The position numbers and the translations under genes are program-made. From Streptomyces sp. ICC1 (GTDB lineage Bacteria > Actinomycetota > Actinomycetes > Streptomycetales > Streptomycetaceae), in the NCBI RefSeq assembly GCF_003287935.1, contig NZ_CP030287.1, positions 4,182,267-4,246,266 on the forward strand: 64,000 nucleotides of DNA. The letters are read 5' to 3'. Under the pieces are notes generated by a model. The model saw nothing but the letters and a program-made list of their open reading frames with translations. It did not search any database and was not told where the DNA came from. Shown here in pieces: positions 41,796-63,040 of this stretch; position 1 is the first letter of the stretch, and every line of letters starts with the position of its first letter.

Positions 41796-42746
41796 ATGTC
41801 AGAAACCAGAGCTCCGAAAAAGGTGATTCTGGCGGAGCCGCGTGGATTCTGCGCCGGTGTGCGCCGAGCGATACAGATCGTCGAGGAGGCCCTGAACAAG
41901 TACGGAGCACCCGTATACGTCCGCAAGGAAATCGTCCACAACCACTACGTCGTCCGCTCCCTGGAGCAGCGCGGCGCGATCTTCGTGGACTCCGAGGAGG
42001 AAGTGCCGGAGGGCTCGGTCTGCGTGTTCTCCGCCCACGGGGTCTCGCCGGCCGTCCGCACCAACGCGGCGCACCGCGAGCTCGACGTCATCGACGCAAC
42101 CTGCCCGCTGGTCTCCAAGGTGCACCAGGAGGCCATCCGCTACGCACGGGACGGCAAGACGATCCTCCTGATCGGCCACAGCGACCACGAAGAGGTCGAG
42201 GGCACCTACGGAGAGGCCCCCGCCTCGACCATCATCGTCGAGGACGTCGAAGCGGTGGCCGCGCTGGACCTGCCTTCGGACGCGGACGTGGCCTACCTGT
42301 CGCAGACCACGCTGTCGCTGGACGAGACCTCCGGCGTCATCGACGCCCTCCGGGAGAAGTTCCCGGCGCTCGAGGGCAAGGGCGACATCTGCTACGCCAG
42401 CCAGAACCGGCAGAACGCCGTGAAGGCGATCGCCCACCGCAGCGACCTGGTGCTCGTGGTCGGCTCGGTCAACTCCAGCAACTCGATCCGGATGGTCGAG
42501 GTGGCCCGCGACCTGGGCACCGCCGCGTACCTGGTGCCCGAGGTGGGCGACCTGCGCACCGAGTGGCTCGACGGGGTCTCCTCCGTCGGCGTGAGCGCCG
42601 GGGCGAGCGCGCCCGAGATCCTGATCGACCAGCTCCTCGAGCGGCTGGCGACGCTCGGCTACGTCGATCTCGAACTCGAGCAGACCGCCATCGAAAACGT
42701 GGTCTTCAGCCTTCCGGCAAGCCTCACCGGGGCATCGGTTCGGTGA
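41796..42746 (+). CDS. ispH: 4-hydroxy-3-methylbut-2-enyl diphosphate reductase
   Basis: A 316-residue IspH (LytB), the last MEP-pathway enzyme, making IPP and DMAPP from HMBPP. The three [4Fe-4S] cysteines are present: C19 in PRGFCAGV, C103 in DATCPLVSKVH and C199 in DICYASQNRQ. So are the substrate residues HNHYVV, AHGVSP, QTTLS and SSNSIR. The wording (RGFCAGVRRAIQIVEEALNK, GAPVYVRKEIVHNHYVVRSL) is closer to proteobacterial-type IspH than to the housekeeping Streptomyces form. This supports a dedicated second copy. It begins the isoprenoid cluster, 62 bases before the prenyl synthase gene. Confidence 0.95.
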   Translation: MSETRAPKKVILAEPRGFCAGVRRAIQIVEEALNKYGAPVYVRKEIVHNHYVVRSLEQRGAIFVDSEEEVPEGSVCVFSAHGVSPAVRTNAAHRELDVIDATCPLVSKVHQEAIRYARDGKTILLIGHSDHEEVEGTYGEAPASTIIVEDVEAVAALDLPSDADVAYLSQTTLSLDETSGVIDALREKFPALEGKGDICYASQNRQNAVKAIAHRSDLVLVVGSVNSSNSIRMVEVARDLGTAAYLVPEVGDLRTEWLDGVSSVGVSAGASAPEILIDQLLERLATLGYVDLELEQTAIENVVFSLPASLTGASVR

Positions 42747-42808
42747 TCTATCCCGAAATCTTCACACGGTTTCGCGCACATTCCGATTTCATCTCAGAGA
42801 AGGCTGCC

Positions 42809-43858
42809 ATGACGACCGTCGTTACCGATATTCAGCAACTCCGGGCCGGATTGCTCGACCAGGTGGAGCAGCGGCTCGAGCAGTTCGTCGAGCGCCAGCG
42901 CGCGTACTGGTACGGGATCAACCCCCGGGCCGCCCAGCCGGTGGACGCGATCTCCTCGCTGGTCGCCAGCGGCGGCAAGCGGCTGCGCCCCGTGTTCGCC
43001 CTCAGCGGCTTCCTGGCCGCCGGCGGCAACCCGTCCGACTCGGTCGCCATCGACGCCTCCGCGGCCCTCGAACTGCTCCAGGCGTTCGCGCTGATCCACG
43101 ACGACGTCGTGGACAACTCCTCGCTGCGCCGCGGCTCCCCCACCGTCCACCGGCTGCACGAGGCCGAGCACCAGATCAACGGCTGGCAGGGCGAGTCCCG
43201 CCGCTTCGGCGAGGGCGTCGCGGTCCTCGCCGGCGACCTGGCCCTCATCTACGCCGACCAGCTCACCACCCGCTTCCCCGCCCCGGCCCGCGCCGTCTGG
43301 GACGAACTGCGCGCCGAGATGGTCATCGGCCAGCACCTGGACGTGGCGGTCGCCGCGGAGGGCGTGGTCGACCCCTCGCTGTCCCGCTGGATCGCGGTGT
43401 GCAAGTCGGGCCGCTACACCATCCACCGCCCGCTGGTGCTCGGCGCCACCCTGGCCGGACGCCCCGACCTGGCCTCGGCGTTCGAGACGTACGGGCTCGC
43501 CCTGGGCGAGGCCTTCCAGCTCCGCGACGACCTGATCGACGCCTTCGGCACCACCGAGGACGCCGGCAAGCCGACCGGCCTGGACTTCGCCGAGCACAAG
43601 ATGACCCTCCTGCTGGCGCTGGCCGCCGAACAGGACGCCCGGGTGCGCTCGCTCCTGGACCGCAAGGACGGCGCCCCCTGGGACGTCGAGCTGCTGCGCA
43701 AGGTCCTGGAGGAGACCGGGGTCCGCGCCACCGTGGAGCGCACCATCGCCGGACTCGTGGACAAGGCCTGCGAGTCGATCGCCCGTTCGGGGCTGGACGA
43801 GTCCTGGTGCGAGGAGTTCTCCCGGCTGGCTACCCGGGTCGCCTACCGAAGCCACTGA
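42809..43858 (+). CDS. Polyprenyl diphosphate synthase
   Basis: A 349-residue trans-type prenyl synthase condensing IPP onto allylic diphosphates. Both aspartate-rich motifs are present: FARM DDVVD at 98-102 (LIHDDVVDNSSLRRGSPTVH) and the second motif in FQLRDDLIDAFG near 238. GGKRLRP and GKPTGLDFAEHK are also conserved. The phenylalanine five residues before the FARM (FALIHDD) may limit chain length, but the product (C15, C20 or longer) cannot be told by eye. It probably uses IPP/DMAPP from the neighbouring MEP genes. It is 25 bases upstream of the first dehydrogenase gene. Confidence 0.93.
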   Translation: MTTVVTDIQQLRAGLLDQVEQRLEQFVERQRAYWYGINPRAAQPVDAISSLVASGGKRLRPVFALSGFLAAGGNPSDSVAIDASAALELLQAFALIHDDVVDNSSLRRGSPTVHRLHEAEHQINGWQGESRRFGEGVAVLAGDLALIYADQLTTRFPAPARAVWDELRAEMVIGQHLDVAVAAEGVVDPSLSRWIAVCKSGRYTIHRPLVLGATLAGRPDLASAFETYGLALGEAFQLRDDLIDAFGTTEDAGKPTGLDFAEHKMTLLLALAAEQDARVRSLLDRKDGAPWDVELLRKVLEETGVRATVERTIAGLVDKACESIARSGLDESWCEEFSRLATRVAYRSH

Positions 43859-43883
43859 CCTCGAGAGCCAACGGGAGTGAATC

Positions 43884-44921
43884 ATGCCCAGAACACTGAT
43901 CGTAGGCTTCGGCCGGGCCGGTCACGGGCTCCATTGGACCGTCCTGGAGCGGCTGCGCCGCACCGAGCGCGGCGCCGCCCTCATCTCCGGCCTCCCGCCC
44001 GTGGTCTACGACTTCAACCCGCACACCCCGCAGCTCACCGACGCCGAGGTGATCTCCGTACCGGAGCTCGCCAAGGCCGCTGAGCTCCTCGATCCCAAGG
44101 ACACCGTCGTCCACCTGTGCACGCCGCCCACGCACCGGCTGGAGCCGCTGCGGGAGCTGGCGGAGCTGGGGTTCGACCGGATCCTCGTGGAGAAGCCGCT
44201 GGTGGCCGACACCGAGGAACTGGCGGCCATCGACGCCCTGCGGGCCGGTCACGGCCTGAAGGTCATGGTGGTGGCGCACTGGCTGCAGAGCGCCCTGACC
44301 ACCCGGCTGCGGTCCCTGGTGCAGGGCGGCAAGCTCGGCACGCTGGAGACCATCTTCGTGGCGCAGCGCAAGCCGCGCCTGGTGCGCACCCTGCAGACCG
44401 AGGGCCACCCGACGGCCTTCGACGTGGAGCTGCCGCACTCGGTGGGGGTGGCGCTCAAGCTGGCCGGCGAGGGCCGGACGGCCGGGGCCGAACTGCACGA
44501 CATGCACGTCGGCGACAGGGTCATCCCCGAGATGGGGGCGGCCCGGCTGCTGCTGGACCACGACGGCGGCGTCCAGACGGAGATCTTCTCCGACCTGGCC
44601 TCGCCGATCCGGGAACGGGTGATCCGCCTCGGGTTCAGCGACGGGTGGGCCGTGGGCCACTACCCGATCAGCGAGAGCGACGACTACGCGCACCTGCACA
44701 CCTCCGCCGACGGGAAGAACGTCCGCTCGGTCTTCCGGGACGACTCCCTGGCCCGGTTCCTGCTCCACGCGTACGAGCAGTTCACCACGGACGCGGACCT
44801 GGAAGCCGACTTCCGGCTCAACTCCCGGGTGACGACCGTGCTCGCGGAAGCCAAGGAACTGGCCAGGATCGCCCGTCTCGAAGAGGCGCTCCAGGAAGAG
44901 GCACTGCCCCATGCTTCCTGA
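43884..44921 (+). CDS. Gfo/Idh/MocA-family oxidoreductase (first)
   Basis: A 345-residue NAD(P)-dependent dehydrogenase. The Rossmann start is LIVGFGRAGHGLHW and the family motif is ILVEKPLVADTEEL. A C-terminal alpha/beta domain has HDMHVGDRVIPEMGAARLLL. Members oxidise or reduce ring hydroxyls of sugars, inositols or related polyols. The substrate is unknown. It overlaps the next gene by 11 bases, so the two are co-translated. Confidence 0.88.
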   Translation: MPRTLIVGFGRAGHGLHWTVLERLRRTERGAALISGLPPVVYDFNPHTPQLTDAEVISVPELAKAAELLDPKDTVVHLCTPPTHRLEPLRELAELGFDRILVEKPLVADTEELAAIDALRAGHGLKVMVVAHWLQSALTTRLRSLVQGGKLGTLETIFVAQRKPRLVRTLQTEGHPTAFDVELPHSVGVALKLAGEGRTAGAELHDMHVGDRVIPEMGAARLLLDHDGGVQTEIFSDLASPIRERVIRLGFSDGWAVGHYPISESDDYAHLHTSADGKNVRSVFRDDSLARFLLHAYEQFTTDADLEADFRLNSRVTTVLAEAKELARIARLEEALQEEALPHAS

Positions 44922-45870
44922 CCTGCGGAGCGTCGCGCGGCACGCGCCGAGGGGCGAGGCAGCCCCCGGGATCCTCTACGCGGGGATCGGCGACGAGGCC
45001 GGGCGCACTCTGGAGCAGCAGGTCCGCGCGGTCTCCGGACTGGGCTGGCAGCTGATCGAGATGCGCAGCGTGGGCGGGGTCGCGATCGCGGACCTGGACG
45101 ACGCGGCCTTCGGCGCCTGCCTGCGGGCGCTGGGGGAAGCGGGGCTGGGCACCGCGTGCGTGGACTCGCGGATCGCGGACTGGTCGAGGCCGATCAGCCA
45201 GGGCGTCGAGCAGGACCTGGCCGAGCTGAACCGGCTCGCCGAGCGGTGCGCCGCCCTCGGCACCCGCTACGTGCGGGTCATGTCCTACCCCAACGACGGG
45301 TGGGACGAGGCCGAGTGGGGCACCGAGGTGATCCGCCGGATGCGGCTGCTGGCCGCCCGGGCGAACGCCTCGGGCCTGGTCCTCCTGCACGAGAACTGTG
45401 CGGGCTGGGCCGGGCGCAGCGCGGAGCGGATGCTGCGGCTGCTGGCGGAGGTGGACAGCCCGGCGCTGCGGCTGCTGTTCGACACCGGCAACGGGGCGGC
45501 GTACGGGTACGAGGCCTACGGGGTGCTGGAGCGGCTGATGAGCCAGTGCCCCGAGGCGGTCGCCCACGTCCACGTGAAGGACGCGGTCGGCAGCGGGACG
45601 GCCGCGGCCTACACGCTGCCCGGCCGGGGCGAGAGCCAGGTGGCCCGGTGTCTGCGGCTGCTGCTGGAGCACGGGTACACCGGCGCCTGGTCGATCGAAC
45701 CGCACCTGGCGCTGCGGCCGCACGAGAGCCGCACCGAGCTGGGCGAGGACGGGCCCGACCTGTTCGTGGAGTACGGGCGGCACCTGGAACACCTGGTCGC
45801 CACCGAGGTCGTGGCATCGGCCACTGACGAGACGAGAGAGGAGAACGCACGTGCCGGCATCGACCACTGA
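44911..45870 (+). CDS. TIM-barrel sugar phosphate isomerase/epimerase-like protein
   Basis: A 319-residue AP-endonuclease-2-type barrel (IolE/xylose-isomerase-like). Metal-site residues appear in LVLLHENCAGWAGRS, RLLFDTGNGAAYG, VAHVHVKDAV and WSIEPHLAL. Members isomerise or dehydrate keto-sugars and inososes, and often pair with Gfo/Idh dehydrogenases as here. It overlaps both neighbours (11 and 20 bases). Confidence 0.87.
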   Translation: MLPDLRSVARHAPRGEAAPGILYAGIGDEAGRTLEQQVRAVSGLGWQLIEMRSVGGVAIADLDDAAFGACLRALGEAGLGTACVDSRIADWSRPISQGVEQDLAELNRLAERCAALGTRYVRVMSYPNDGWDEAEWGTEVIRRMRLLAARANASGLVLLHENCAGWAGRSAERMLRLLAEVDSPALRLLFDTGNGAAYGYEAYGVLERLMSQCPEAVAHVHVKDAVGSGTAAAYTLPGRGESQVARCLRLLLEHGYTGAWSIEPHLALRPHESRTELGEDGPDLFVEYGRHLEHLVATEVVASATDETREENARAGIDH

Positions 45871-47194
45871 GCCGCGGACCGCGCCGCTGCGGACCGCGCC
45901 GCTCACCGCCGGGGACGACGCGCTGCTGCTGCGGCTGCTGTCCCTGCCGACCGCCGGTCCGCTGGAGACCGGGGCGGGCGGCGAGGTCCGGCTGTGGGAG
46001 GCCCAGCTGGCCTACGCCGAGGCGGCCCGGGAGCTCGGTTTCACCGTCGAGTGGCACGGCACCGCCGACGCCGACGAGCTGGCCGACGAGCAGGTCCCGG
46101 CGGTCGTGCGGTGGGCGGTGCGGGACGGCGGGGAGTTCCTGGCCTCGCAGCCCAGCCTGGTGCTGCGGCTCGGGCCGCCGCTGCCGCGGTCGCGGACCGT
46201 GATGTTCAACATCCACGTGGACACGGTCGCCGGGGTGCAGCCGGTGTCGCTGGCCGACGGCCGCTTCCACGGCCGGGGCGCCATCGACGCCAAGGGCCCC
46301 GCGGTGGCCCTGCTGGCCGGAATCCGGGCGGCGCTCGACGCGGAGCCCGCCGTCGGCCGCGAGATTGGTGTCCTGATCCAGCTGGTGTCCGGCGAGGAGG
46401 GCGGCGCCATGGGGGTCTACGGCACCCGGCCGCTGATCGAGCGTGGGTACACGGGCCGGTTGAACATCTTCTGCGAGCCGACGGGGCGGCGGCTGCTGAC
46501 CCGCTCCACGGCCGCGATGACGGCCCGGGTGCGGGTGGCGGGCGACGACTCCATCGACGACGCCCCGGCCGCCGGGCACAACGCGACGGTCCTGCTGGGG
46601 CACGTGGCCGGCCACCTGGCCGACACCCTGCCGCGGTACGCGACCAGCGGCCAGGTGTGCGTGGCCGGCCTGCAGACCGGACCGCTGCACAACAAGGTCT
46701 ACGGGACGGGCCAGTTGCTGCTGAACCTGTCCTACGGCTCCGGCGCCGACGGCATCGCACTGGAGGAGGCCGTAGGCCACGAGCTGCGCCTGGCGCTGGC
46801 CGGCTTCCGCCACCGCTTCGCCGGCAGCGAGCTGATCGGGCGGACCGCCGCGGACGCGGAGGAGATCACCACCCTGGACTGGCTCAAACGCGGACTGCCC
46901 GCCCTGGAGTCCCGCGACGCGTGGGCGGAGCGGCTGCTGACCGAGGAGGCCGGGCTGGAGCGCTGGCCGGCCGACGAGGCCGCCTTCACCTGCGACGCCA
47001 TCTGGGCCGACGGGCTGCCGGACGGGTTCACGGCCGTGTTCGGCCCCGGGGACCTGCAGCGCAACAACGCCCACGCCGAGGGCGAGTTCGCCGACCGGGA
47101 GGAACTCGAACTGTTCGCCGGGGACATCGCCCGGCTACTGATCGCCTTCGCCACCAACGACCTGCCGTCGACGACGTCGACGTCGACGACGTGA
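45851..47194 (+). CDS. M20-family metallohydrolase (ArgE/DapE/LysK type)
   Basis: A 447-residue zinc amidohydrolase. Metal and catalytic residues: HVDTVAG (H, D), GRGAIDAKGPAVALLAG (D), VSGEEGG (general-base E), FCEPTG (E) and a C-terminal NNAHAEGEFAD (H). Family members remove acyl groups from amino acids or cleave small amides. In this cluster it could deprotect an N-acylated intermediate, but that is inference. The GTG start at 45851 overlaps the previous gene. The C-terminus ends in a short TSTSTT run from a GTCGAC repeat. Confidence 0.87.
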   Translation: MPASTTEPRTAPLRTAPLTAGDDALLLRLLSLPTAGPLETGAGGEVRLWEAQLAYAEAARELGFTVEWHGTADADELADEQVPAVVRWAVRDGGEFLASQPSLVLRLGPPLPRSRTVMFNIHVDTVAGVQPVSLADGRFHGRGAIDAKGPAVALLAGIRAALDAEPAVGREIGVLIQLVSGEEGGAMGVYGTRPLIERGYTGRLNIFCEPTGRRLLTRSTAAMTARVRVAGDDSIDDAPAAGHNATVLLGHVAGHLADTLPRYATSGQVCVAGLQTGPLHNKVYGTGQLLLNLSYGSGADGIALEEAVGHELRLALAGFRHRFAGSELIGRTAADAEEITTLDWLKRGLPALESRDAWAERLLTEEAGLERWPADEAAFTCDAIWADGLPDGFTAVFGPGDLQRNNAHAEGEFADREELELFAGDIARLLIAFATNDLPSTTSTSTT

Positions 47195-47205
47195 TGAGGA
47201 AGCAC

Positions 47206-48339
47206 ATGACCACCGCCACAGCCACCGCCGAGCGGTCCCGCACCGTCCGGCTCGACCACGGCGAGCTCGTCGGCTTCACCGCCGAGGTGTTCGTCCGCCG
47301 GGGCCTGGCCGAGGACCGGGCACGGGCCGCCGCCGAGGCGCTGGTGTACGGGGACCTGACCGGGGTCAGCTCCCACGGCCTGGCCAACCTGACCCGCCAG
47401 TACCTGCCCCTGTTCGACGAGGGGCGCGCCGACCCCGAGGCCAATCTGGAGATCGTCGCCGATCGGGGCGCGGCGGTCCTGGTGGACTCGCACCGGGCGC
47501 TGGGCCTGTGGTCGGCGGGCGCGGCGATGGAGCTGGCCGCCGAGCGGGCCCGGACCCACGGGATCGGCCTGGTCTCCCTGTACAACGGCACCCACTTCGG
47601 GTGCGCCGGGTACTTCACGGGCAAGCTGGCCCAGCAGGGCCAGATCGGCCTGCTGGCCGGCAACTGCGGCGGGCAGCGCATCATCCGCCCGCCGGGCGGA
47701 GCCGCCGCGATGCTCGGCACCAACCCGTTCAGCCTGGCCGTACCGGCCGGCGAACACCCCCCGTACGTCCTGGACATGAGCACCACGGTGGTCCCCACGG
47801 GCCGGGTGCGGGCGGCCGAGCGGGCCGGGAAGCGGATCCCCGAGGGCTGGCTCGCCGACGACGCGGGCACCCCGGTCACCGACCCCGGAGCCTTCGACCG
47901 CGGCGAGGCGCACCTGCAGTGGCTGGGCGGGCGCCCGGAGACCGGCGCCTACAAGGGGTACGGGCTGAGCCTGCTGGTGGAGACGCTGGCGGCGCTGCTG
48001 CCCGGCGCGAACCTCGGTCCGACCGGGGAGCTCGGCGGGGCCCGCCCCAACGGCCGCGACGACAACATCGGCTTCCTCGCCCTGGCGATCGCACCGGGCA
48101 CGCTGCGCCCCGAGGGCGAGTTCCTGGCGCAGGCCGACGATCTGTTCGCCTCCCTGCTGGGGGCCCCGGCGATCGATCCCGCCCGGCCGGTGAGCTACCC
48201 CGGCTGGCCCGAGGACCGGCACGCGCGCCAGGCGCGCGAACACGGCGTACCGCTGGCCGCCGCCCTCCACGGCGAGCTGCTGGCAGTCGCCGAGCAGTAC
48301 TCCCTCGTCCCGCCCGCTCCCCTTGGAGGAGAACGATGA
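47206..48339 (+). CDS. Ldh-family (malate/L-lactate dehydrogenase type) oxidoreductase
   Basis: A 377-residue member of the YlbC/ComC/MDH2 family, which reduces 2-keto acids (or oxidises 2-hydroxy acids) with NAD(P)H. Conserved: GDLTGVSSHGLANLTRQYL with the catalytic histidine, NGTHFGCAGYFTGKLA, AAMLGTNPFSLAVPAG and YKGYGLSLLVETLAALLPG. Substrates range over malate, lactate, ureidoglycolate and diketogulonate; the one here is unknown. Its stop overlaps the start of the next gene (ATGA). Confidence 0.9.
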   Translation: MTTATATAERSRTVRLDHGELVGFTAEVFVRRGLAEDRARAAAEALVYGDLTGVSSHGLANLTRQYLPLFDEGRADPEANLEIVADRGAAVLVDSHRALGLWSAGAAMELAAERARTHGIGLVSLYNGTHFGCAGYFTGKLAQQGQIGLLAGNCGGQRIIRPPGGAAAMLGTNPFSLAVPAGEHPPYVLDMSTTVVPTGRVRAAERAGKRIPEGWLADDAGTPVTDPGAFDRGEAHLQWLGGRPETGAYKGYGLSLLVETLAALLPGANLGPTGELGGARPNGRDDNIGFLALAIAPGTLRPEGEFLAQADDLFASLLGAPAIDPARPVSYPGWPEDRHARQAREHGVPLAAALHGELLAVAEQYSLVPPAPLGGER

Positions 48340-49262
48340 GCAAGATCCGTATCGGCATCGTGGGGCTGGGAGTGATCTCCCGCTTCTACCTGGAGGCGCT
48401 CGAGGGCCTCCCGGGCCTGGAACTGGCCGCCGTGTGCGACCTCAACGAAGAGGTGCTGGCCCCCTTCGAGGGGAAGATCCCCACCTACCGCGACCACCGC
48501 GAACTGCTGGCCGGCACGGAGCTCGACGCGGTCGTCGTCAACGTCCCCAACGACGTGCACTTCGCGGTCGTCCGGGACGCCCTGAGCGCCGGACGCGCGG
48601 TCTGCGTCGAGAAGCCCCTCGCGATCACCGTGGAGGAGGGCCGGACGCTGCGGGCACTGGCCTCCGTCCGCAAGGTGGCGCTGTTCACCGCGTACCACCG
48701 CCGCTACAACACCAACGTCCTCGCCCTGCGGGACGGCCTGCCGGACGGTGTCCCCGTCGAGAAGCTGACGGTGCGCTACTGGGAGAAGATCGAGGAGCAC
48801 GTCGGCCGCGACCAGTGGTACCTGAACCCGGAGCGGTGCGGCGGCGGCGCGGTCGCCGACAACGGCCCCAACGCCATCGACGTGGTGCACCTGCTCCTCG
48901 GCGAGGTCTCGCTGACCGGCGCGGACGTCACCCGCGACGAGAACGGCGTGGACCAGCAGGCCGTGATCCGGCTGACCTCGGCCGACGGGACCGAGGCCGT
49001 CGTGGACCTGGACTGGGCCTACGGCCACGGGGAGCTCAAGGACGTCGAGGTCGTGCTCGGCGACGGGCGCCGGTTCTCCGCCGACATGCTGGGCGGCTAC
49101 CCGGGCTTCAAGAGCTCGCTGGGCCACGAGTACGTGGGCGTCCTCGAGGAGTTCGCCGAGGTGCTGCGCGGCGAGCGCGCCACCTGGCCGGACGGCCTGG
49201 CCACCCTCGAACTCGTCCACCAGGTCTACCGGTCCGAGCGCACGGCCGTCACCGCCGGCTGA
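48336..49262 (+). CDS. Gfo/Idh/MocA-family oxidoreductase (second)
   Basis: A 308-residue NAD(P)-dependent dehydrogenase: Rossmann start IGIVGLGVISRFYLEAL, motif CVEKPLAITVEEGRTL, and ERCGGGAVADNGPNAIDVVH in the substrate domain with the usual catalytic D-x3-H pattern. It is shorter than, and distinct from, the first Gfo/Idh protein of this block. GGAGGAGAACG precedes the ATG, and the start overlaps the ldh-type gene by four bases. It ends the tightly coupled tailoring block. Confidence 0.9.
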   Translation: MSKIRIGIVGLGVISRFYLEALEGLPGLELAAVCDLNEEVLAPFEGKIPTYRDHRELLAGTELDAVVVNVPNDVHFAVVRDALSAGRAVCVEKPLAITVEEGRTLRALASVRKVALFTAYHRRYNTNVLALRDGLPDGVPVEKLTVRYWEKIEEHVGRDQWYLNPERCGGGAVADNGPNAIDVVHLLLGEVSLTGADVTRDENGVDQQAVIRLTSADGTEAVVDLDWAYGHGELKDVEVVLGDGRRFSADMLGGYPGFKSSLGHEYVGVLEEFAEVLRGERATWPDGLATLELVHQVYRSERTAVTAG

Positions 49263-49293
49263 CCGGGGCCTTCCCGCACGCATCGCACCGCAG

Positions 49294-49314
49294 GCATCGC
49301 ATCGCATCGCATCG
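49294..49314. repeat. GCATC pentanucleotide tandem repeat
   Basis: Four GCATC units just upstream of the dxs fusion gene, with further degenerate copies before them (from 49277). Confidence 0.8.
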
Positions 49315-49346
49315 ATCCAGCACCACACCAAGGGAGTTGAACTGTC

Positions 49347-51689
49347 ATGGCACACCCGGAGAACGGTCGGAAGAAGAGCGTCAACGGCGTTGTCGTCAAG
49401 GTGCTCAAGCACCGCCGAGACGACCGCGGCATGGTCCTGGAGCCGTACACGAGCCGCTGCGTGCGGGAGGGCGAGATCCACGAGCTGGTGACCACCGACC
49501 AGGTCACCACCCAGCCGGGCGGCACCGTCGACCGGGTGGCGTTCCTCGGCTTCGTCGAGCTCACCAACGGCGGGGTCCTGGACCGCGGCGACGAGGTCTG
49601 GTCCGGTGAGCAGCGCGTCGGCACCGTCCTCGGCTACGACGCCTGCCACTTCCCCAACCACTACAACGTCCTGATCTCCACCGACACCCCGAAGACCGGC
49701 CCGGAGATCGGCCTGGAGCCGTCCACGGAGATCCGCTTCGTGCCGGCCGAGGGCCACCGCGACCGCGCCGAGGGCGTCGGCCGGCTGCTGCGGGCCGTGC
49801 GCACCCCGCAGGACCTGCGCTCGATGAACCACGAGCAGCTGAACCAGCTGGCGGGGGAGATCCGCCAGACCCTGGTGGAGAAGGTCTCCAAGACCGGCGG
49901 CCACCTCGGCCCCAACCTCGGTGTCGTCGAGCTGACCATCGCCCTGCACCGGGTGTTCCGCTCCCCGCACGACTCGATCGTCTGGGACACCGGCCACCAG
50001 ACCTACGTCCACAAGATGCTGACGGGCCGCGCCGACCAGTTCGACAAGCTGCGCCAGGCCGACGGCCTCTCGGGCTACCCCTCGCGGGCCGAGTCGGTCC
50101 ACGACCTGGTGGAGAACTCCCACGCGACCACCGCCCTGTCCTACGCGGACGGCCTGGCCAAGGCGTACAAGCTCAAGGGCCAGAAGGACCGCTTCGCGGT
50201 CGCGGTCATCGGCGACGGCGCCATGACCGGCGGCATGTGCTGGGAGGCCATCAACAACATCGCGGCCGACAAGGAGCTGCCGGTCGTCATCGTCGTCAAC
50301 GACAACGGCCGCTCGTACGCGCCGACCATCGGCGGCCTGGCCGAGCAGCTGACCAAGCTGCGCACCTCGCACAAGTACGGCCGGGTGCTGGAATGGGGCA
50401 AGCTGGTCGCCAAGGCCCCGGTGCTGGGCAGCGGACTGTACGACGTCCTGCACGGCGCGAAGAAGGGCCTCAAGGACACCGTCGCCCCGCAGAACCTCTT
50501 CGACGGGCTCGGCCTGAAGTACATCGGCCCGGTCGACGGCCACGACACGGTGGCGCTGGAGAAGGCCCTGACGCGGGCCCGCCACTTCGGCGGCCCGGTC
50601 CTCGTCCACGTCATCACCACCAAGGGCAACGGCTACGCCCCGGCGGAGAACCACGAGCTGGACCGCTTCCACGCCACGGCCGCCTTCGACATCAGCACCG
50701 GCCGGGCGAAGGCCCCCGCGACCCCGGCCCCGCGCAGCTGGACCTCGGTGTTCAGCGAGGAGATCGTCAAGGCCGGACACCGCCGCGAGGACCTGGTGGC
50801 GATCACGGCGGCGATGCTGGAGCCGACCGGGCTGCGGGACTTCTCGCTGGCCTTCCCGGAGCGCACCTTCGACGTCGGCATCGCCGAGCAGCACGCGGTG
50901 ACCTCGGCGGCGGGCCTGGCCATGGGCGGCATGCACCCGGTCGTGGCGATGTACGCGACCTTCCTGAACCGCGCGTTCGACCAGGCGCTGATGGACGTGG
51001 CCCTGCACAAGCAGCCGGTCACCTTCGTCCTGGACCGGGCCGGTGTGACGGGTGACGACGGCGCCAGCCACAACGGCATGTGGGACCTGTCGATCCTGAA
51101 CGTGGTGCCGGGGATGCGGATCGCCGCCCCGCGCGACGGCCGCCGGCTGGGCGAGCTGTTCCAGGAGGCCATCGAGGTCAAGGACGGGCCCACCGCGGTG
51201 CGCTTCCCCAAGGGGCCGGTGCAGTCCGACATCGACACGGTGGACAGGGTCGGCGGCATAGACGTCCTGCACCGCGGCGAGAGCGCGGACATCCTCCTCG
51301 TCGCCGTCGGCAGCATGGCGCAGACCTGCCTGGACGCGGCCTCCCTGCTGGAGGCCGACGGGATCGGCTGCACCGTGGTCGACCCCCGCTGGATCAAGCC
51401 GGTCGACCCGGCCCTGATCCCGCTGGCCGCGCGCCACCGCCTGGTGGCGACCGTCGAGGACAACGGCCTGTCCGGCGGCGCCGGTTCGGCCGTGGCGATG
51501 GCCCTGCGCGCCGCGGGCGTGGACACCCCGACCCGCGAGTTCGGCATCGCCCAGGAGTTCCTCGACCACGCCAAGCGCGCCGACATCCTCAAGGCGCTCG
51601 GCCTGACGCCGGGCGACATCGCCCTCAAGCTCTCCGGGGCCCTGCAGCGGCAGCCCGCCGCCCAGCTGCCCGCCGAGCAGCTGGTCTGA
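49347..51689 (+). CDS. dxs: 1-deoxy-D-xylulose-5-phosphate synthase with an extra N-terminal domain
   Basis: A 780-residue protein. Residues from about 140 on are a complete DXS, the first MEP enzyme (pyruvate + glyceraldehyde 3-phosphate to DXP): [15 protein letters not shown], the thiamine-diphosphate motif GDGAMTGGM...[23 protein letters not shown] with the catalytic glutamate, and [16 protein letters not shown]. The first 135 residues are a separate beta-rich domain ([50 protein letters not shown]) that normal DXS lacks; I believe it belongs to a domain of unknown function (possibly DUF6917), not verified. GGGAG precedes the ATG. Length exceeds the family's usual ~640 by this domain. Confidence 0.92.
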
Positions 51690-51696
51690 CCGGCGC

Positions 51697-51780
51697 GACG
51701 TACCCGACGTACCCGAAGGACCCGACGTACCTGCTGGACCCGACGTACCTGCTGGACCTGACGTACCTGCTGGACCTGCT
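51697..51780 (+). repeat. Tandem repeats between dxs and ispG
   Basis: Six GACGTACC units; the last three form an 18-base repeat GACGTACCTGCTGGACCY. They fill the 140-base gap after the dxs stop and could fold into weak hairpins. They stay open in the ispG frame, but no start codon and ribosome-binding site support translation. Confidence 0.85.
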
Positions 51781-51829
51781 GTGTCCGCCCTTGCCCGTTC
51801 TTGCGAAGTCTCCCGAAGGGACCCCCGTC

Positions 51830-53122: not shown

Positions 53123-53130
53123 GTACGCCG

Positions 53131-53164: not shown

Positions 53165-53188
53165 GACCAGGGAGGTCAGTCCGGGAGG

Positions 53189-54790: not shown

Positions 54791-57126
54791 CAGTTCCTCC
54801 TGCCGACGGCCCAGGCCACCTGGACGCGCGAGTTGCAGCCCAGCTTGCGCATGACGTGCCGGACGTGGTTGACGACGGTCCACTCCGCGATCTCCAGCCG
54901 CCCGGCGATCTGGCGGTTGGTGAGCCCCTCGGCGACCAGCAGGGCCACTTGGAGCTGGCGCGGGGTCAGGACGGCGGCCTCGCCGCGGTCCTCGTGGCGG
55001 CCGGTTCCGACGGCGGCCAGGGCCTCGCCGGCCATGGCCTCCGGGCGCAGCCGCAGCCCCTCCACCCAGGCGGTGGCGAAGACGGTCCAGCCGAGCTGGC
55101 GGCGCAGTCCGGTGACAGCCTCCTGGACCCGGTCCCAGTGGTCGTCGGGGACCTTGGCACCGGTACGCCGGCGCAGCGATTCGGCGGCGGCGAGCAGCCG
55201 GGTGGCCCGCTGGGGCTGGCCGGCGGCGCTCTGGATGAGCAGGGCGAACTCCTCCAGGGCGGCGGGGAGTTCGGTGCGCTCGTCGACGGAGTCGAACAGT
55301 CGCAGGCTTTCGCGCAGCGCGCTCCGCGCGGCCTCCTCGTCGTTCTCGCGCAGCGCGGCGCGGGCGACGGCGAGCAGGGTGCGGGCCAGGTCGCGCACCT
55401 CCCCGCTCTGGCGGTGGATGCGTACGGCCCGGTCCAGGAGCGCCCGTACCTCCTCGGCGGGTCCGGCGGCGAGGGCTTCGGCGAGGGCGGTGGCGGCCTC
55501 GGCGGAGCCGGCGGTGTCGCCCTGCGCCTCCAGGGTGGCGCGGGCGGCGGACAGCAGGGACTGGCCCACGGCCCGGTCCCCGCAGTGGAAGTAGGCCAGG
55601 CCCATGCGGGCGGAGGCGCGGGCGCCCTGCCGGGGGTCGCGCAGCTGCTTGTAGAGGGCGACCGCACGGCGGTGCCGGTGGGAGGCGCCGTCGTGGTCGC
55701 CGAGGGCGGCGGCGAGGCAGCCGGCCCCGTCGTGCAGCCGGGCGCGCATCCGCAGCAGCTCCTCGTCCTGCGCGTCCTGCGCGTTCTGCGTCTTCTGCTC
55801 CTCCTGGAGGGCCTGGGCGGTGGTGTCGAACCAGCGCAGCCCCTCCTTGAGTTCGCCGCGCACCAGCCAGGGCCGCAGGCTGGCGGCGGCGAGCGCCGCC
55901 CGCCCCCGCAGGTCGCCCTCGTCCCGCAGGTGGGCGAGGGCGGCCAGCACGTTCTCGTGCTCCACGGCGGCGGCCCGCAGCCAGCGGCGCTGCTCGGAGC
56001 CGTTGAACCGGCCGTCGAGGGTGTGCAGGAGCCCCTGGTAGTGGCGGGCGTGGGCCTGGCGCGCGGAGCGCTCCGCGCCGGAGTCCGCGAGGAGCGCGAG
56101 CCCGTACGTGCGGATGGTGCGCGACATCGTCAGGCGGCTGTCGGCGCGCGGGTGTTCGGTCAGGGAGAGCAGGTTGCGGTCGAGGAGCGCCTCGATGGCC
56201 TCGGCGCTCTCGCCGGGCGCCAGCGGGGTGACCTTCTCGGCCGTGGCGAGGGTGGCGCCGCCCTCGAAGACGGCCAGGTGCCCGAGCAGGGTGCGCTGCC
56301 GCTCGCTCAGGCCCCGGCAGCTCCACTCGGCCATGGCCAGTACGGAGCGCTGGCGCGCGGGCGCGTCGACGGGGCCGGACAGGTGGCTGTCGCCGCCCCG
56401 GACCAGCCAGGCGTGCAGTTCGCGCAGCGGGAACAGGCGCAGCCGCCAGGCGGCCAGCTCCAGTACCAGCGGCACGCCTTCGAGGAGGTTGCAGACGGCG
56501 ACGACCGATTCGACGTTCTCCGCGGTGAGCGTGAACTCGGGGTTCACCTCGTGGGCGCGCCGGGTGAAGAGCTGGACGGCCGGGTTCTCCTGGACGTCGG
56601 CGACCTCGGGCTCCGCGAGCGGTCCGGGCGGGGCCAGCGGTGCCACGGGGACCACGCGCTCCCCGTAGATGCGCAGGGCCTGCTGCCCGGTGGCCAGCAC
56701 GGTCAACGCGGGCTGTGCGGCGAGGTGTTCGGCGACGGCGGGTGCGAGGACGCCGGTCAGGTGCTCGACCCCGTCGAGGATCAGCAGGAACCGCAGCGGG
56801 TCCGCGCCGCCGGGATGCGACTGGGCTCTGGCGACGGCCGCGGCGGCCGCGGCGGCGCCCGCGGCGACGGCCCCGGCGACCGCTTCGACGGCCGCGTCCG
56901 GCGACGCGCAGGCGGGCAGGTCCACGGAGCGGACGCCGCCGGGGAACTCGGCGGCGAGGCCGTGCGCGGCCTCGGCGGCCAGTCTGCTCTTGCCGACGCC
57001 GGCGGGGCCGGTGAGCGTGGCGAGCCGGACGGCCCGGTCCTGGAGCCTCCCTTGGATTCCCATCAGATCGAGTTCCCTGCCCACCAGTCCGGCGGACAGC
57101 TGAGGCGTCCCGAGATCGATCGACAT
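54790..57126 (-). CDS. Large LuxR-family transcriptional regulator (LAL/AfsR-like)
   Basis: A 778-residue regulator. An N-terminal NTPase has Walker A GPAGVGKSRLAAEAA at 40-54 and a Walker B-like LLILDGVEHL. A TPR-like helical middle follows, and a C-terminal LuxR helix-turn-helix (LTPRQLQVALLVAEGLTNRQ, IAGRLEIAEWTVVNHVRHVM). It is probably the pathway-specific activator of the isoprenoid cluster. It is divergent from the ferredoxin-dxr genes and translationally coupled to the eroded ligase. The ATG at 57126 follows GGGGGAAAA directly. Confidence 0.92.
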   Translation of the reverse strand: MSIDLGTPQLSAGLVGRELDLMGIQGRLQDRAVRLATLTGPAGVGKSRLAAEAAHGLAAEFPGGVRSVDLPACASPDAAVEAVAGAVAAGAAAAAAAVARAQSHPGGADPLRFLLILDGVEHLTGVLAPAVAEHLAAQPALTVLATGQQALRIYGERVVPVAPLAPPGPLAEPEVADVQENPAVQLFTRRAHEVNPEFTLTAENVESVVAVCNLLEGVPLVLELAAWRLRLFPLRELHAWLVRGGDSHLSGPVDAPARQRSVLAMAEWSCRGLSERQRTLLGHLAVFEGGATLATAEKVTPLAPGESAEAIEALLDRNLLSLTEHPRADSRLTMSRTIRTYGLALLADSGAERSARQAHARHYQGLLHTLDGRFNGSEQRRWLRAAAVEHENVLAALAHLRDEGDLRGRAALAAASLRPWLVRGELKEGLRWFDTTAQALQEEQKTQNAQDAQDEELLRMRARLHDGAGCLAAALGDHDGASHRHRRAVALYKQLRDPRQGARASARMGLAYFHCGDRAVGQSLLSAARATLEAQGDTAGSAEAATALAEALAAGPAEEVRALLDRAVRIHRQSGEVRDLARTLLAVARAALRENDEEAARSALRESLRLFDSVDERTELPAALEEFALLIQSAAGQPQRATRLLAAAESLRRRTGAKVPDDHWDRVQEAVTGLRRQLGWTVFATAWVEGLRLRPEAMAGEALAAVGTGRHEDRGEAAVLTPRQLQVALLVAEGLTNRQIAGRLEIAEWTVVNHVRHVMRKLGCNSRVQVAWAVGRRN

Positions 57127-57383
57127 TTTTCCCCCATGTCTTGATGCCCGGTGGCTGGCTTTCGGAACTGAACGGGGGGACGAAAGGTGTCCCACCGTGC
57201 GGTTCCGGAAGCTAGTCAGCGGGCCTTAAGGGGCTCTGAAGGCGAGGCCCGCGCGGTCACGGCGACGGGGCCGAGGGCGCCTTTAGCCCGTCACAAGCCC
57301 TTCTGGTTCGAATGCGGGGCGAGCTGGACAGCTCGCGCCGGCAACGACACCAGGAACGTTTCCGCCACCCCGAGGAGCCACCC
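57127..57383. promoter_or_regulatory. Divergent promoter region luxR / ferredoxin-dxr
   Basis: A 257-base gap between divergent starts. It holds a CCTTAAGG palindrome (57224-57231) and GCGCCTTTAGC (57277-57287). The core GCCTTTAGC also occurs, on the minus strand, at 59394-59402 upstream of the carrier-protein gene. These are candidate binding sites for the LuxR regulator or promoter elements; neither fits a consensus I can name. Confidence 0.3.
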
Positions 57384-57710
57384 GTGACGTACGTCATCGC
57401 TCAGCCTTGCGTCGACGTGAAGGACAAGGCCTGCATCGACGAATGCCCCGTGGACTGCATCTACGAGGGCCCGCGCATGCTGTACGTCCAGCCCGACGAA
57501 TGCGTCGACTGCGGGGCGTGCGAACCGGTCTGCCCCGTCGAGGCGATCTTCTTCGAGGACGACGTGCCGGAGGAGTGGGCCGGGTTCGGACCGGCGAACA
57601 TCGAGATCTTCGAGACCGTCGGCTCCCCGGGCGGCGCGAGCAACGCGGACCCGCTGGCGGCCGACCACCCGTTCGTGGCCGCCCTTCCCCTGGCCGCCGC
57701 CCATGTCTGA
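57384..57710 (+). CDS. 7Fe (3Fe-4S/4Fe-4S) ferredoxin
   Basis: A 108-residue FdxA-type ferredoxin. Cysteines 9, 17, 21, 25, 40, 43, 46 and 50 give the pattern of a 7Fe protein ([37 protein letters not shown]). Both IspG and IspH need low-potential electrons, so a dedicated donor within an MEP cluster makes sense. The GTG at 57384 has GAGGAG upstream. Its stop overlaps the dxr start by 8 bases. Confidence 0.93.
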
Positions 57711-58944
57711 GCTCCTGACGGCCGCCGCCGCACCGCTCGCCGACCCACGCGTGGCCCAGCCGATCGCCTCCGGCCCGCGCAGCGTGGTCATCCTCGGCTC
57801 CACCGGCTCGATCGGCACGCAGGCCGTCGACGTGATCCGCCGCTCGCCCGGCCGGTTCCGCGTGCTCGGCCTGGCCGCGGGCGGCGGCCGCCTGGAGCTG
57901 CTGGCCGAGCAGGCCCTCCTCCTCGGTGTGGAGTACGTGGCGGTGTCGGACGCCGACGCCCTGCCGGCCCTGCGCGGGCTGCTCGCGGCACGGGCCGCCG
58001 GCCGCGCGCTGCCGAAGCTGCTGGGCGGACCCGACGCGGCCACCGAGCTGGCGGGCCTGGAGTGCGACGTGGTGCTCAACGGCATCACCGGATCCATTGG
58101 CCTGGCCCCGACGCTGGCCGCCCTGGAAGCCGGCACCGTGCTCGCGCTGGCCAACAAGGAGTCCCTGGTCGCGGGCGGTCCGCTGGTGAAGCGGCTGGCA
58201 CGACCGGGGCAGATCGTGCCCGTCGACTCCGAGCACTCGGCGCTGTACCAGTGCCTGACCGGCGGCCGCGACACGGAGGTGCGCCGCCTGGTCCTCACGG
58301 CCAGCGGCGGGCCGTTCCGCGGCCGGGCCCGGGCCGATCTGGAGAACGTCACCCCGCAGCAGGCGCTGGCCCACCCGACCTGGGACATGGGCCCGATGGT
58401 GTCGGTGAACTCGGCCACGCTGATGAACAAGGGGCTCGAGGTCATCGAGGCCCACCTGCTCTTCGACATCCCCTTCGACCGCATCGACGTGGTGGTCCAC
58501 CCCCAGTCGGTCGTGCACTCCATGGTCGAGTTCACCGACGGTTCCACGCTGGCCCAGGTCAGCCCGCCGGACATGCGGATCCCCATCGCGCTCGGACTGG
58601 GCTGGCCGGACCGGGTGCCGGACGCCGCCCCCGGATGCGACTGGACCACGGCGACGGCCTGGACCTTCTTCCCGCTGGACCACGAGGCCTTCCCCGCCGT
58701 CGGCCTCGCGCAGCACGCGGGCCGCGCGGGCGGTGTGGCGCCCGCCGTCTTCAACGCCGCCAACGAGGAGGCCGTGGGCGCCTTCCTCGCCGGCCGGCTG
58801 CCGTTCACCGGCATCGTGAGCACCGTGCAGCGGGTGGTGGACGAGCAACTGGACGCCACCCCGAGCGCCGCCGCTCTGACCCTGTCCGACGTGCTCGACG
58901 CCGAGAAGCGGGCCCGGGTCCGCGCGCGCGAGCTGGCCGGCTGA
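57703..58944 (+). CDS. dxr: 1-deoxy-D-xylulose 5-phosphate reductoisomerase
   Basis: A 413-residue DXR (IspC), the second MEP enzyme, making MEP with NADPH. Conserved: [75 protein letters not shown] and [13 protein letters not shown]. Length is usual for the family. It is co-translated with the ferredoxin. This is the dedicated copy; a housekeeping dxr is expected elsewhere in the genome. Confidence 0.96.
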
Positions 58945-59049: not shown

Positions 59050-59325
59050 TCAGCGGCCGACGGGGGCCGCCGTCAGCACCGACAGGTACGCGACCAGCGC
59101 GTCGATCGTCGGGTGGTCGTAGACCAGGGTCGAGGGGACGATCAGGCCCCGCTCGTCCTCCAGGTCACCGCACAGGGTCAGGGCGCAGACCGAGTCCATG
59201 CCGTAGACGGCGAGCGGGGTCCGGGGGTCGAGGCTGCCGACCGGCCGGCCGAGGTGGAGCGCGAGGCGTTCGGTCAGCCAGCCGCGCAGCTCTCCGGCCA
59301 CCGGCGGGGCTCCGGGGGTGGTCAT
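59050..59325 (-). CDS. Phosphopantetheine-dependent carrier protein (ACP/PCP)
   Basis: A 91-residue single carrier domain. The phosphopantetheine serine is S45 in VYGMDSVCALTLCGDLED; helix 3 region HPTIDALVAYLSVL is typical. It would tether an acyl or aminoacyl intermediate as a thioester. No active adenylation or ketosynthase gene is near; the coupled ligase-like protein looks inactive, so the loading enzyme is unknown. A minus-strand GGAGGACC precedes the start. Confidence 0.88.
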   Translation of the reverse strand: MTTPGAPPVAGELRGWLTERLALHLGRPVGSLDPRTPLAVYGMDSVCALTLCGDLEDERGLIVPSTLVYDHPTIDALVAYLSVLTAAPVGR

Positions 59326-59494: not shown

Positions 59495-59527
59495 CTCGCG
59501 CGGCGGGCTCGGGCGGCCCGCCCGGCC

Positions 59528-60976
<1,449 letters not shown>

Positions 60977-61008
60977 TCGAATTCCTCCGTGCGGGGTGAT
61001 GGTCGGGG

Positions 61009-61947
61009 TCAGGCGACCGCTGCGCGGGCCGACAGGCGGGCCCGGGCCAGTCCCAGGTTCTGGTGGATCTCCAGGGCGGCCGTGGAACGGTTGAGGGTGA
61101 TGTAGTGCAGGCCGGGCGCCCCCTCGGCGAGGAGCCGTTCGGCCATGTCCGTCGCGTGCCCGACGCCGATCCGGTGTCCTTCGGCGCGGTCGTCACGGGC
61201 CGCCTCCAGCCTCTGGGCCAGGGCGTCGGGGAAGGAGGCGTTGCTGAGTTCGGCGAACCGCCGGATCTGGCGGACGTCGGTGGCGGGCATGATCTCCGGG
61301 ATGATCGGGATGTCGCAGCCGGCCGCCGCGACCCGGTCGCGCAGCCGCAGGTAGTCCTCGACCCGGAAGAACATCTGGGTGATGGCGTAGTCCGCGCCGG
61401 CCCGGCACTTGGCCACGAAGTGGCCGATGTCGCTCTCCCAGTCCGCGGAGCGCGGATGGCGTTCGGGGAAGGCGGCGACGCCCACGCCGAAGCGGCCGAC
61501 CTCCTTGACGAGGGTCACGAGCTCATCGGCGTGGGTCAGTCCCTCCGGGTGCGGGATCCAGGGGCCGTTCGGATCGCCCGGCGGGTCCCCGCGCAGCGCG
61601 AGGACGTCGTGGATCCCGGCATCGGCGTACTGGCCCATGATCTGGCGCAGTTCCGCCACGGAGTGCCCGACCGCGGTCAGGTGCGCGACGGCGCGCAGGG
61701 TGGTCTGGGTGGCGATCTTGTGGGTGGTCGCGATGGTGCGGGTACGGGAGGAGCCGCCGGCCCCGTAGGTCACCGAGACGAAGGTCGGGGCGACGGCCTC
61801 GACCCGGCGGATCGCGTGCCACAGGCGGCGCTCCCCGGCCTCGTCCTTCGCGGGGAAGAACTCGAAGGAGTAGGAGCGCTCGCCGTCGGCGGGAAGCAGG
61901 GCCGGGCGGTATCGGCCGCGCTCGGCGGAGCGCTGCGGACCTGACAT
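61009..61947 (-). CDS. metF: 5,10-methylenetetrahydrofolate reductase
   Basis: A 312-residue FAD-dependent MetF producing 5-methyl-THF for MetH. Conserved: [69 protein letters not shown] and [20 protein letters not shown]. The start MSGPQRS at 61947 follows GGAAGGAACCTCC. It sits 32 bases downstream of the metH remnant and before ahcY. Confidence 0.95.
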
Positions 61948-61979
61948 GGAGGTTCCTTCCGGACGTACGGGGGCGCGCG

Positions 61980-63040
61980 TCAGCGGGCGTTGAAGTACTT
62001 GGCTTCGGGGTGGTGGATGACGATCGCGTCGGTCGACTGCTCCGGGTGCAGCTGGAACTCCTCGGAGAGGTGGACGCCGATCCGCTCGGGCCGCAGGAGG
62101 TCGGCGATCTTGGCGCGGTCTTCGAGGTCGGGGCAGGCGCCGTAGCCGAGGGAGAAGCGGGCGCCGCGGTACTTCAGGTCGAACATCTCTTGGACCTGTG
62201 CCGGGTCCTCGCCGCCGAAGCCGAGCTCGGCGCGGACGCGGGCGTGCCAGTACTCGGCCATGGCCTCCGCGAGCTGGACGGACAGGCCGTGCAGCTCCAT
62301 GTACTCGCGGTACGCGTTCCCGGCGAACAGGCGGGCGGTCTCCTCGCCGATCTTCGAGCCGACGGTGACCACCTGGAGGCCGATCACATCGGTCTCCCCC
62401 GACTCCTCGGGCCGGAAGAAGTCGGCCAGGCAGAGCCGGCGGCCGCGGCGCTGGCGCGGGAAGGTGAAACGGGTCCGCTCGGACCCCGTCTCGTCGAGGA
62501 TCACCAGGTCGTCGCCCTTGGACACGCAGGGGAAGTACCCGTAGACCACGGCCGCTTCGAGCAGGTTGCCGGTGTGCAGGCGGTCCAGGAGCCCGCGCAG
62601 GCGGGGCCGCCCCTCGCCGGCCACCAGCTCCTCGTACGAGGGCCCGCCGCGGGCCTGCTTGAGGCCCCACTGGCCCTTGAACAGGGCGCCCTCGTCCAGC
62701 CAGGAGGCGTAGTCCTTCAGCGGGATGCCCTTGACCACGCGGGTGCCCCAGAACGGCGGGGCGGGGACCGGGTTGTCGATGCGGACGTCCGAGCGGACGG
62801 ATCCCTCGTCCTCGGGGCGCTCCTCGACGATGACGGGCGCGTCCCGCTTGGCGACGCGGCGCTTCTTGAGCTCGGGAAGAGCGGCTCCGGGGACTCCGCG
62901 TTTGACTCCCATGAGGGCGTCCATGAGGCGCAGGCCTTCGAAGGCGTCGCGGGCGTAGCGGACTTCGCCTTCGTAGATTTCGTGGAGGTCTTGTTCGACG
63001 TAGGCGCGGGTCAGGGCGGCGCCGCCGAGGATGACGGGGT
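61980..63040 (-). pseudogene. metH: C-terminal fragment of cobalamin-dependent methionine synthase
   Basis: About 350 residues match the end of MetH: the tail of the B12-binding domain ([40 protein letters not shown]) and the SAM-binding activation domain ([62 protein letters not shown]). The homocysteine- and folate-binding modules and the cobalamin histidine motif, about 800 residues, are missing. Homology ends at VILGG and passes directly into ABC-ATPase sequence. This is either a real truncation or a misjoined assembly; the location next to metF favours an originally intact metH. Confidence 0.85.

Follow-up and report, generated by a model that had tools for sequence, protein, structure and literature searches.

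A Streptomyces locus with dedicated isoprenoid-precursor genes as the probable half of a divided meroterpenoid cluster

Gene content of the locus

The stretch analyzed here (the window, 64,000 nucleotides) covers positions 4182267-4246266 of contig NZ_CP030287.1 (C1 below), the single contig of 9,034,319 bases that makes up the genome of Streptomyces sp. ICC1. It carries copies of ispH, dxs, ispG and dxr of the methylerythritol phosphate (MEP) pathway, a cassette of enzyme genes followed by a domain of the family DUF6917, and genes for S-adenosylmethionine (SAM) recycling. We predict from sequence that this region and a second locus once made up a single cluster for meroterpenoid biosynthesis, which a rearrangement divided in this strain, a reading that we consider likely and that draws on gene families, linkage in relatives, co-occurrence and a broken metH gene. 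The product of the cluster is probably a terpene that carries a nitrogen-containing unit derived from a sugar. Genes were called from open reading frames (ORFs) by codon-position GC and assigned to families with Pfam and NCBIfam; with such simple calling, gene starts are approximate. The block in common with Streptomyces sp. ISL-43 begins at window position 39130 (90% nucleotide identity).

39161..40525, plus strand: MFS transporter (Pfam MFS_1, 172.7 bits), at the left edge of the block common with ISL-43
40651..41499, minus strand: PEP mutase/isocitrate-lyase family enzyme (Pfam PEP_mutase, 249 bits), adjoining ispH in ISL-43 too
41796..42746, plus strand: ispH, second genomic copy (Pfam/NCBIfam)
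42806..43858, plus strand: polyprenyl diphosphate synthase (Pfam; NCBIfam models all under cut-off)
43884..44921, plus strand: Gfo/Idh oxidoreductase 1, cassette gene 1 (Pfam)
44911..45870, plus strand: IolE-like TIM-barrel isomerase/epimerase, cassette gene 2 (Pfam/NCBIfam)
45851..47194, plus strand: M20 deacylase/hydrolase, cassette gene 3 (Pfam/NCBIfam)
47194..48339 (start approximate), plus strand: Ldh2-family dehydrogenase, cassette gene 4 (Pfam Ldh_2, 322 bits)
48323..49262, plus strand: Gfo/Idh oxidoreductase 2, cassette gene 5 (Pfam)
49347..51689, plus strand: in-frame fusion of DUF6917 (about 49347-49760) with Dxs (about 49779-51689) (Pfam/NCBIfam)
51698..52993 (start approximate), plus strand: ispG/gcpE, second genomic copy (Pfam/NCBIfam)
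53189..54790, minus strand: AMP-dependent acyl ligase (Pfam AMP-binding, 123 bits; best NCBIfam match cyclohexanecarboxylate-CoA ligase, 181.5 bits, under that model's cut-off)
54790..57195, minus strand: large ATPase/TPR/LuxR regulator (Pfam; orthologue 83% in ISL-43, 67% in S. canus)
57312..57710 (start approximate), plus strand: ferredoxin (Pfam; orthologue 91% in ISL-43, 74% in S. canus)
57703..58944, plus strand: dxr, second genomic copy (Pfam)
59050..59325, minus strand: acyl carrier protein (Pfam PP-binding, 50.8 bits)
59528..60976, minus strand: ahcY, second genomic copy, accessory SAM recycling (Pfam)
61009..61944, minus strand: metF (Pfam MTHFR, 316 bits)
61980..63068, minus strand: metH C-terminal fragment, reactivation domain and end of the B12 domain (Pfam, PDB match)
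63044-63271 and 63301-63528, unstranded: inverted repeat (91%, 2 x 228 nucleotides) derived from the neighboring ABC ATPase gene and adjoining the break

An earlier note on this DNA had named a prenyl synthase, the MEP genes ispH, dxs, ispG and dxr, ferredoxin, a carrier protein, a large LuxR regulator, ahcY and metF, and the Pfam and NCBIfam assignments bear it out for each of them, although the N-terminal DUF6917 domain of the Dxs protein (Pfam) had been missed. The tailoring block that it mentioned is present and consists of Gfo/Idh, IolE-like TIM barrel, M20, Ldh2 and Gfo/Idh with the minus-strand AMP ligase. As for its ahcY-metF-metH set, ahcY and metF stand, whereas metH is only a C-terminal fragment. 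Neither Gfo/Idh oxidoreductase has a PDB relative by sequence at the cut-offs applied (1e-3 and 1e-8; for the first of the two proteins, E<=0.001).

A partner half with the prenyltransferase and the cyclase

No cyclase or prenyltransferase lies in this region, as the earlier note had stated; its suggestion that missing genes may lie to the right is not supported. Gene calling and inspection by eye alone gave no partner gene in the 38 kb that follow the window on that side, and the genome instead holds a UbiA prenyltransferase and a terpene cyclase at C1:3.375-3.388 Mb. The DegT proteins of a relative together with the UbiA family led to C1:3372528-3376648, which belongs to a partner half located 0.82-0.88 Mb from the window genes, on the side opposite to the right flank.

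C1:3.369-3.398 Mb: partner half; in order, AIR-synthase-like gene (minus strand), AfsA homologue (minus strand), DegT1, DegT2, methyltransferase, UbiA, AMP ligase 1, UDP-N-acetylhexosamine (UDP-HexNAc)-type dehydrogenase (UGDH), SDR epimerase, FAD epoxidase-like gene, alpha/beta hydrolase, MMPL exporter, AMP ligase 2, Pyr4-like terpene cyclase, FAD amine oxidase, TetR, FAD/NAD(P)-binding protein (minus strand), metK, N-terminal part of metH
C1:3370155-3371264, minus strand: AfsA-type butyrolactone gene (86.6 bits), adjoining DegT1
C1:3375692-3376648: UbiA prenyltransferase (PF01040, 61.9-63.3 bits, cut-off 34.2)
C1:3387206-3388027: Pyr4-like transmembrane terpene cyclase (Pyr4-TMTC, PF25129, 105.9 bits, cut-off 27), outside the window, within the partner half

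With the predicted joining and ring-closing enzymes at the partner half, the proposal that the window genes by themselves form a coherent set is not supported. The methylated product envisaged for them is plausible, a methyltransferase and metK being present in the partner half. The earlier note was largely right: the region is real, but probably half of a cluster.

Among PDB chains, DegT1 and DegT2 are both closest to sugar aminotransferases: DegT1 matches best with a DesV-type transaminase (268 bits) and DegT2 with QdtB (210 bits); WbpE chains reach 235-238 and 207-209 bits, respectively, and are therefore not singled out. UGDH scores 409 bits with the nucleotide-sugar dehydrogenase subfamily (cut-off 189.8) and stays under the cut-off of the specific models for UDP-N-acetylmannosamine (UDP-ManNAc) dehydrogenase; it is closest to the UDP-ManNAc-type dehydrogenases. 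The FAD epoxidase-like protein matches FAD_binding_3 with 35.2 bits, and orthologues of the methyltransferase belong to Methyltransf_11. The AfsA-type gene next to DegT1 points to possible signalling control of the cluster.

Linkage of the two halves in related genomes

DUF6917 occurs once in this genome and in 51 of the 392 Streptomyces genomes surveyed. DegT1 (E<=1e-90) was present in 44 of these 51 and in none of 19 DUF6917-negative genomes, taken as the first names among the 341 negatives (Fisher p about 1e-11). The seven genomes where it was missed (G072, G223, G251, G290, G317, G319 and G374) are those in which DUF6917 matches most weakly. For all but one of the 44 genomes with both genes (43), the distance between them is at most 22 kb, and 41 have it within 10 kb; this genome alone is split, with 859,103 bases. 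For G208 the distance of 18 kb refers to a second DegT, the closest relative of DegT1 (94%) being 32 kb off on the same contig. G392 equals G208 and G398 equals G337, with the same coordinates and scores.

In S. canus V4I20 both halves are found in about 39 kb, with the order DegT1-DegT2-methyltransferase-UbiA-ligase-UGDH-epoxidase-MMPL-ligase on one side and acyl carrier protein-ferredoxin-LuxR-AMP ligase-Dxs/DUF6917-Gfo2-Ldh2-M20-TIM-Gfo1 on the other. In Streptomyces sp. ISL-43 the two halves together take up about 47 kb, at 162-210 kb of a single contig, where blocks match window 39130-58944 and C1:3369082-3394275 with 90-96% DNA identity. Its carrier-protein region, which matches to window position 59401, is about 130 bases from DNA matching C1:3394275. 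A pyruvate-ferredoxin-type oxidoreductase pair adjoins the ferredoxin in S. canus and in one further locus (L006).

A wider scan, of a collection described as 84,980 species genomes, gave 245 relatives, and the best 80 of these 245 loci were kept and searched by tblastn (E<=1e-10, identity >=33%) with the window and partner proteins and with an EF-hand protein from L055. Counts among these loci are minimum values biased toward close relatives, as flanks extend to at most 10 kb and many loci run into contig ends. Both DegTs were found in 66 loci and one or both in 69; the counts for the FAD amine oxidase and the methyltransferase are 33 and 13. No DegT was present in the stretches of 11 loci; genome-wide checks of eight of them (all except L013, L024 and L069; two repeat genomes of the 51) revealed DegT1 in all eight.

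The broken metH and the split

The window fragment of metH corresponds to the last ~350 residues of an enzyme of ~1180 residues, matches residues 829-1176 of PDB 8g3h_A and is without the homocysteine- and folate-binding domains. The N-terminal part is found at C1:3396592-~3398120, adjoining metK, and matches residues 42-528 of the same structure; about 300 residues are in neither piece. At C1:3396592-3400074 an open frame joins the first ~510 MetH residues to glycogen-debranching-like sequence. The two pieces would, judging from these matches, once have been one gene. The only other genomic Met_synt_B12 match (C1:7945031-7945633) is also end-only and is 89.5% identical to the window piece over 1,079 bases, the likeness extending up to window position 63040; the window end could therefore derive from this copy at 7.95 Mb. 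Because both Met_synt_B12 matches are end-only, the strain may lack an intact metH.

The junction between carrier protein and partner genes in ISL-43 is the place that holds SAM genes here: ahcY, metF and the metH end in the window, metK and the metH start on the partner side. An intact ahcY-metF-metH-metK set is thus not present together, with metH in incomplete pieces at two places and metK at the partner half. None of the 80 loci showed ahcY, metF or the metH end, although 10-kb flanks would hardly extend that far; the three were also missing from the 80 kb surrounding the ISL-43 cluster and from 60 kb of S. canus, where they would be visible if present. We therefore regard the SAM genes as accessory rather than core. 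The split would have arisen by a rearrangement of the chromosome. The simplest form would be an inversion of ~847 kb that has one of its ends in metH, and the orientation of the genes fits this.

Second copies of the MEP genes

The four MEP genes of the window are dedicated to secondary metabolism and not part of primary metabolism, because each has a second copy in the genome. Two copies each of ispH, ispG, dxr and ahcY were found, and for dxs two strong matches and two weak ones; the second copies are at C1:887788 (ispH), C1:3744467 (ispG), C1:3747555 (dxr), C1:1269430 (dxs) and C1:4972380 (ahcY). The earlier note had proposed that these MEP genes are dedicated to a methylated, prenyl-containing metabolite, a claim that would have fallen had these been the only MEP genes of the genome, and the duplication of all four agrees with it. 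Window and second copies are 58% (IspH), 85% (IspG), 70% (Dxr) and 62% (Dxs part) identical. Window IspH is nearer to the IspHs of related clusters (67-97%, six loci), whereas Dxs (57-96%, 13 loci) and IspG (78-97%, eight loci) show no clear-cut preference for the cluster copies over the second genomic copy.

The DUF6917 cassette across actinomycetes

The order Gfo/Idh–TIM barrel–M20–Ldh2–Gfo/Idh–DUF6917 is conserved in actinomycetes, and DUF6917 is also found in Saccharothrix, Lentzea, Amycolatopsis, Kitasatospora and Saccharopolyspora, among others. Ldh2 was detected in 78 of the 80 loci, M20 in 77, and Gfo1 and TIM in 75 each; for the second Gfo/Idh the window copy passes the tblastn cut-off in eight, and an ORF family stands at the same place in 57. 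DUF6917 proteins of fusion size (n=70, about 429-1365 residues) carry Gfo/Idh in 55 cases, Dxs in 10 and Ldh2 in three, which ties DUF6917 to the cassette enzymes; one of the remaining two has SnoaL-like domains and one no other domain. The residues H22, R27, R37, H45, E46, D98, H101, N104 and H105 are among those invariant in 16 sequences, and also in 40, which suggests that they form a catalytic site.

Among the 13 loci of MEP type, DUF6917 and Dxs are fused in three (L004, L005, L007), separate in nine and interrupted in frame in L006. An EF-hand protein accompanies the cassette in 50 of the 80 loci, that is in none of the 13 of MEP type versus 50 of the 67 others (Fisher p 3.8e-7), a count weakened by short contigs and 10-kb flanks. 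The EF-hand protein of L059 (L059:12923-13441) belongs to the calerythrin family (PDB 1nya, 201.9 bits; next best 50.9). One cassette may thus come in two flavors, either with its own MEP genes, as here, or with a calerythrin-family calcium-binding protein, and the neighborhood suggests that the latter has a role in the cassette pathway. Calerythrin has been studied structurally and is not known to have an assigned role.

Proposed pathway and product

In the proposed scheme Dxs, Dxr, IspG and IspH would, with the prenyl synthase, provide a prenyl diphosphate, the ferredoxin probably giving electrons to IspG and IspH. The head group would start with UGDH and the two aminotransferases: UGDH would form a UDP-aminouronic acid, and DegT1 and DegT2 with Gfo/Idh partners would add amines. 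M20 may then take off an acyl group, TIM and Ldh2 may isomerize and reduce, and DUF6917 would contribute one further step, so that the window half would hold five or six steps from carbohydrate to head group. AMP ligases would load the acid onto the carrier protein, UbiA would join the prenyl chain to the head group, and the FAD epoxidase-like enzyme and the Pyr4-like cyclase would fold the chain. The methyltransferase is predicted to decorate the product and MMPL to export it. The partner half would further add an oxidase, the AfsA-type gene and metK, and the window half the regulator. Substrates and order of reactions are predicted here, as are the action of UbiA on the sugar-derived unit and the class of the product. 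For the head group, an amino (hetero)cyclic carboxylic acid is the most likely structure, by analogy with the sugar-derived pyrrole carboxylate of congocidine.

As a tentative proposal, which we hold to be possible rather than probable, the cassette, the two DegTs and the UDP-sugar dehydrogenase would form a pathway, so far undescribed, in which an aminouronic nucleotide sugar is converted to a new ring that contains nitrogen and is prenylated by UbiA; DUF6917 would be an enzyme of this pathway, possibly the ring-forming one, and the pathway would exist in the two flavors described above.

The sugar genes might instead lead to an activated aminouronic sugar, which would be linked to a terpene as a glycoside, with UbiA prenylating another acceptor. 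DegT1, DegT2 and UGDH do resemble nucleotide-sugar enzymes, the SDR epimerase adjoins UGDH, and UbiA is present in only 43 of the 80 loci. However, no glycosyltransferase turned up among the Pfam-scanned proteins of both halves (not every ORF was scanned), and M20, Ldh2, the AMP ligases and the carrier protein suit a free acid. We consider attachment as a glycoside unlikely.

One cluster or two

Several observations weigh against the proposed reading. The 60 kb examined in S. canus gave no match to ispH, the prenyl synthase, ispG or dxr. The ISL-43 match is without the methyltransferase, UbiA, most of ligase 1, the epimerase, most of the epoxidase-like gene, ligase 2, Pyr4, the oxidase and TetR, and between its carrier gene and dxr ISL-43 has a second set (DegT1, DegT2, UbiA, ligase, oxidase) that is 42-49% alike. 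ISL-43 appears to have lost the shared prenylation and cyclization module and to hold a diverged one alongside, an exchange of modules within one cluster. Pyr4 matched in one of the 80 loci (L008) and was not seen at the cut-off used in the S. canus and ISL-43 stretches, so that cyclization may be particular to few strains. MEP-type genes are found in 13 loci (by tblastn dxs in 13, ispG in eight, the prenyl synthase in seven and ispH in six), UbiA in 43 and UGDH in 44; prenylation and MEP supply are therefore not universal beside the cassette. Finally, the flanks of ISL-43 match neither place in this genome, and the direction of change is therefore only inferred.

The split itself could be an artefact of assembly, the cluster being contiguous in the real chromosome. 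The split is seen in one assembly only, and the break falls at a broken metH whose end has an 89.5% identical copy of 1.08 kb at 7.95 Mb, and at an inverted repeat. On the other hand, the genome is a single contig of 9.03 Mb, and a simple misjoin would explain neither the in-frame run of the metH start into debranching-like sequence nor the ~300 missing residues, which leaves an artefact improbable. Were it one, the functional reading would be unchanged.

That the window is instead a complete terpenoid cluster and the locus at 3.37 Mb a separate one of common ancestry would fit their distance of 859 kb, the AMP ligases in each and the extra DegT/UbiA set of ISL-43. We judge this very unlikely in view of the linkage within 22 kb in 43 of 44 genomes, the 0 of 19 count for DegT1 in tested genomes without DUF6917, the presence of both halves in one stretch in S. 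canus and ISL-43, and the metH pieces that end at both places. The notion that the MEP genes are housekeeping copies in an incidental neighborhood can be practically discarded: it could call on the lack of a clear cluster preference of Dxs and IspG, but all four genes are duplicated, the other dxr and ispG stand together at 3.744-3.748 Mb, and the IspH identities (67-97% versus 58%) favor the cluster. A single divided cluster is thus the reading that we retain.

Neighboring genes

At window 37652-38659, one protein combines a WHH/colicin-type nuclease with SMI1/KNR4 domains, a layout like that of toxin and immunity genes. To the right of the window, at 82454-83602 in window numbering, a gene call encodes what we take to be a protein resembling bacterial nitric oxide synthase.

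Comparison with known systems and implications

The terpene half matches the logic of bacterial meroterpenoids of the Pyr4 type. The zigralone (zig) cluster is described as one of these, XiaH, TylF and GroF also being named, and combines a prenyl synthase, UbiA, methyltransferases, ferredoxin and a Pyr4-like cyclase in one pathway, as here; its head group, however, is an indole-derived quinolone made by a thiamine pyrophosphate (TPP) enzyme and P450s (PMC13307353), whereas nucleotide-sugar genes and DUF6917 are found here. The sugar half comes nearest, as an idea, to the congocidine precursor of 'sweet origin', 4-acetamidopyrrole-2-carboxylate (PMC4047045), a sugar-derived N-heterocyclic carboxylate used as a building block, as is predicted for the head group here. 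The congocidine pathway differs in that it is not known to involve prenylation, nor are Ldh2, TIM, M20 or DUF6917 known as features of it.

The WbpA/WbpB/WbpE pathway leads to diaminouronic nucleotide sugars and resembles the present genes, at the level of enzyme families, in combining a putative 6-dehydrogenase, Gfo/Idh and a DegT aminotransferase; here, in contrast, there are two aminotransferases, M20, Ldh2, the TIM barrel, DUF6917 and a link to prenylation. Phenalinolactone-type diterpene clusters hold extra MEP genes, as is the case here; they are not known to follow a UbiA/Pyr4/DUF6917 logic. The open-access literature searched (5.39 million papers) gave neither the word "DUF6917" nor a description of this gene combination, and no known product could be matched, in line with the earlier note.

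Reading neighborhood by neighborhood can make a cluster look incomplete after a rearrangement has moved key enzymes by 0.86 Mb. The cassette for the head group, rather than the set of MEP genes, carries the novelty. Since DUF6917 is common and yet missing from the open-access literature searched, it may mark a widespread pathway that has yet to be described, and the flavor with the EF-hand protein places calerythrin beside a defined pathway.

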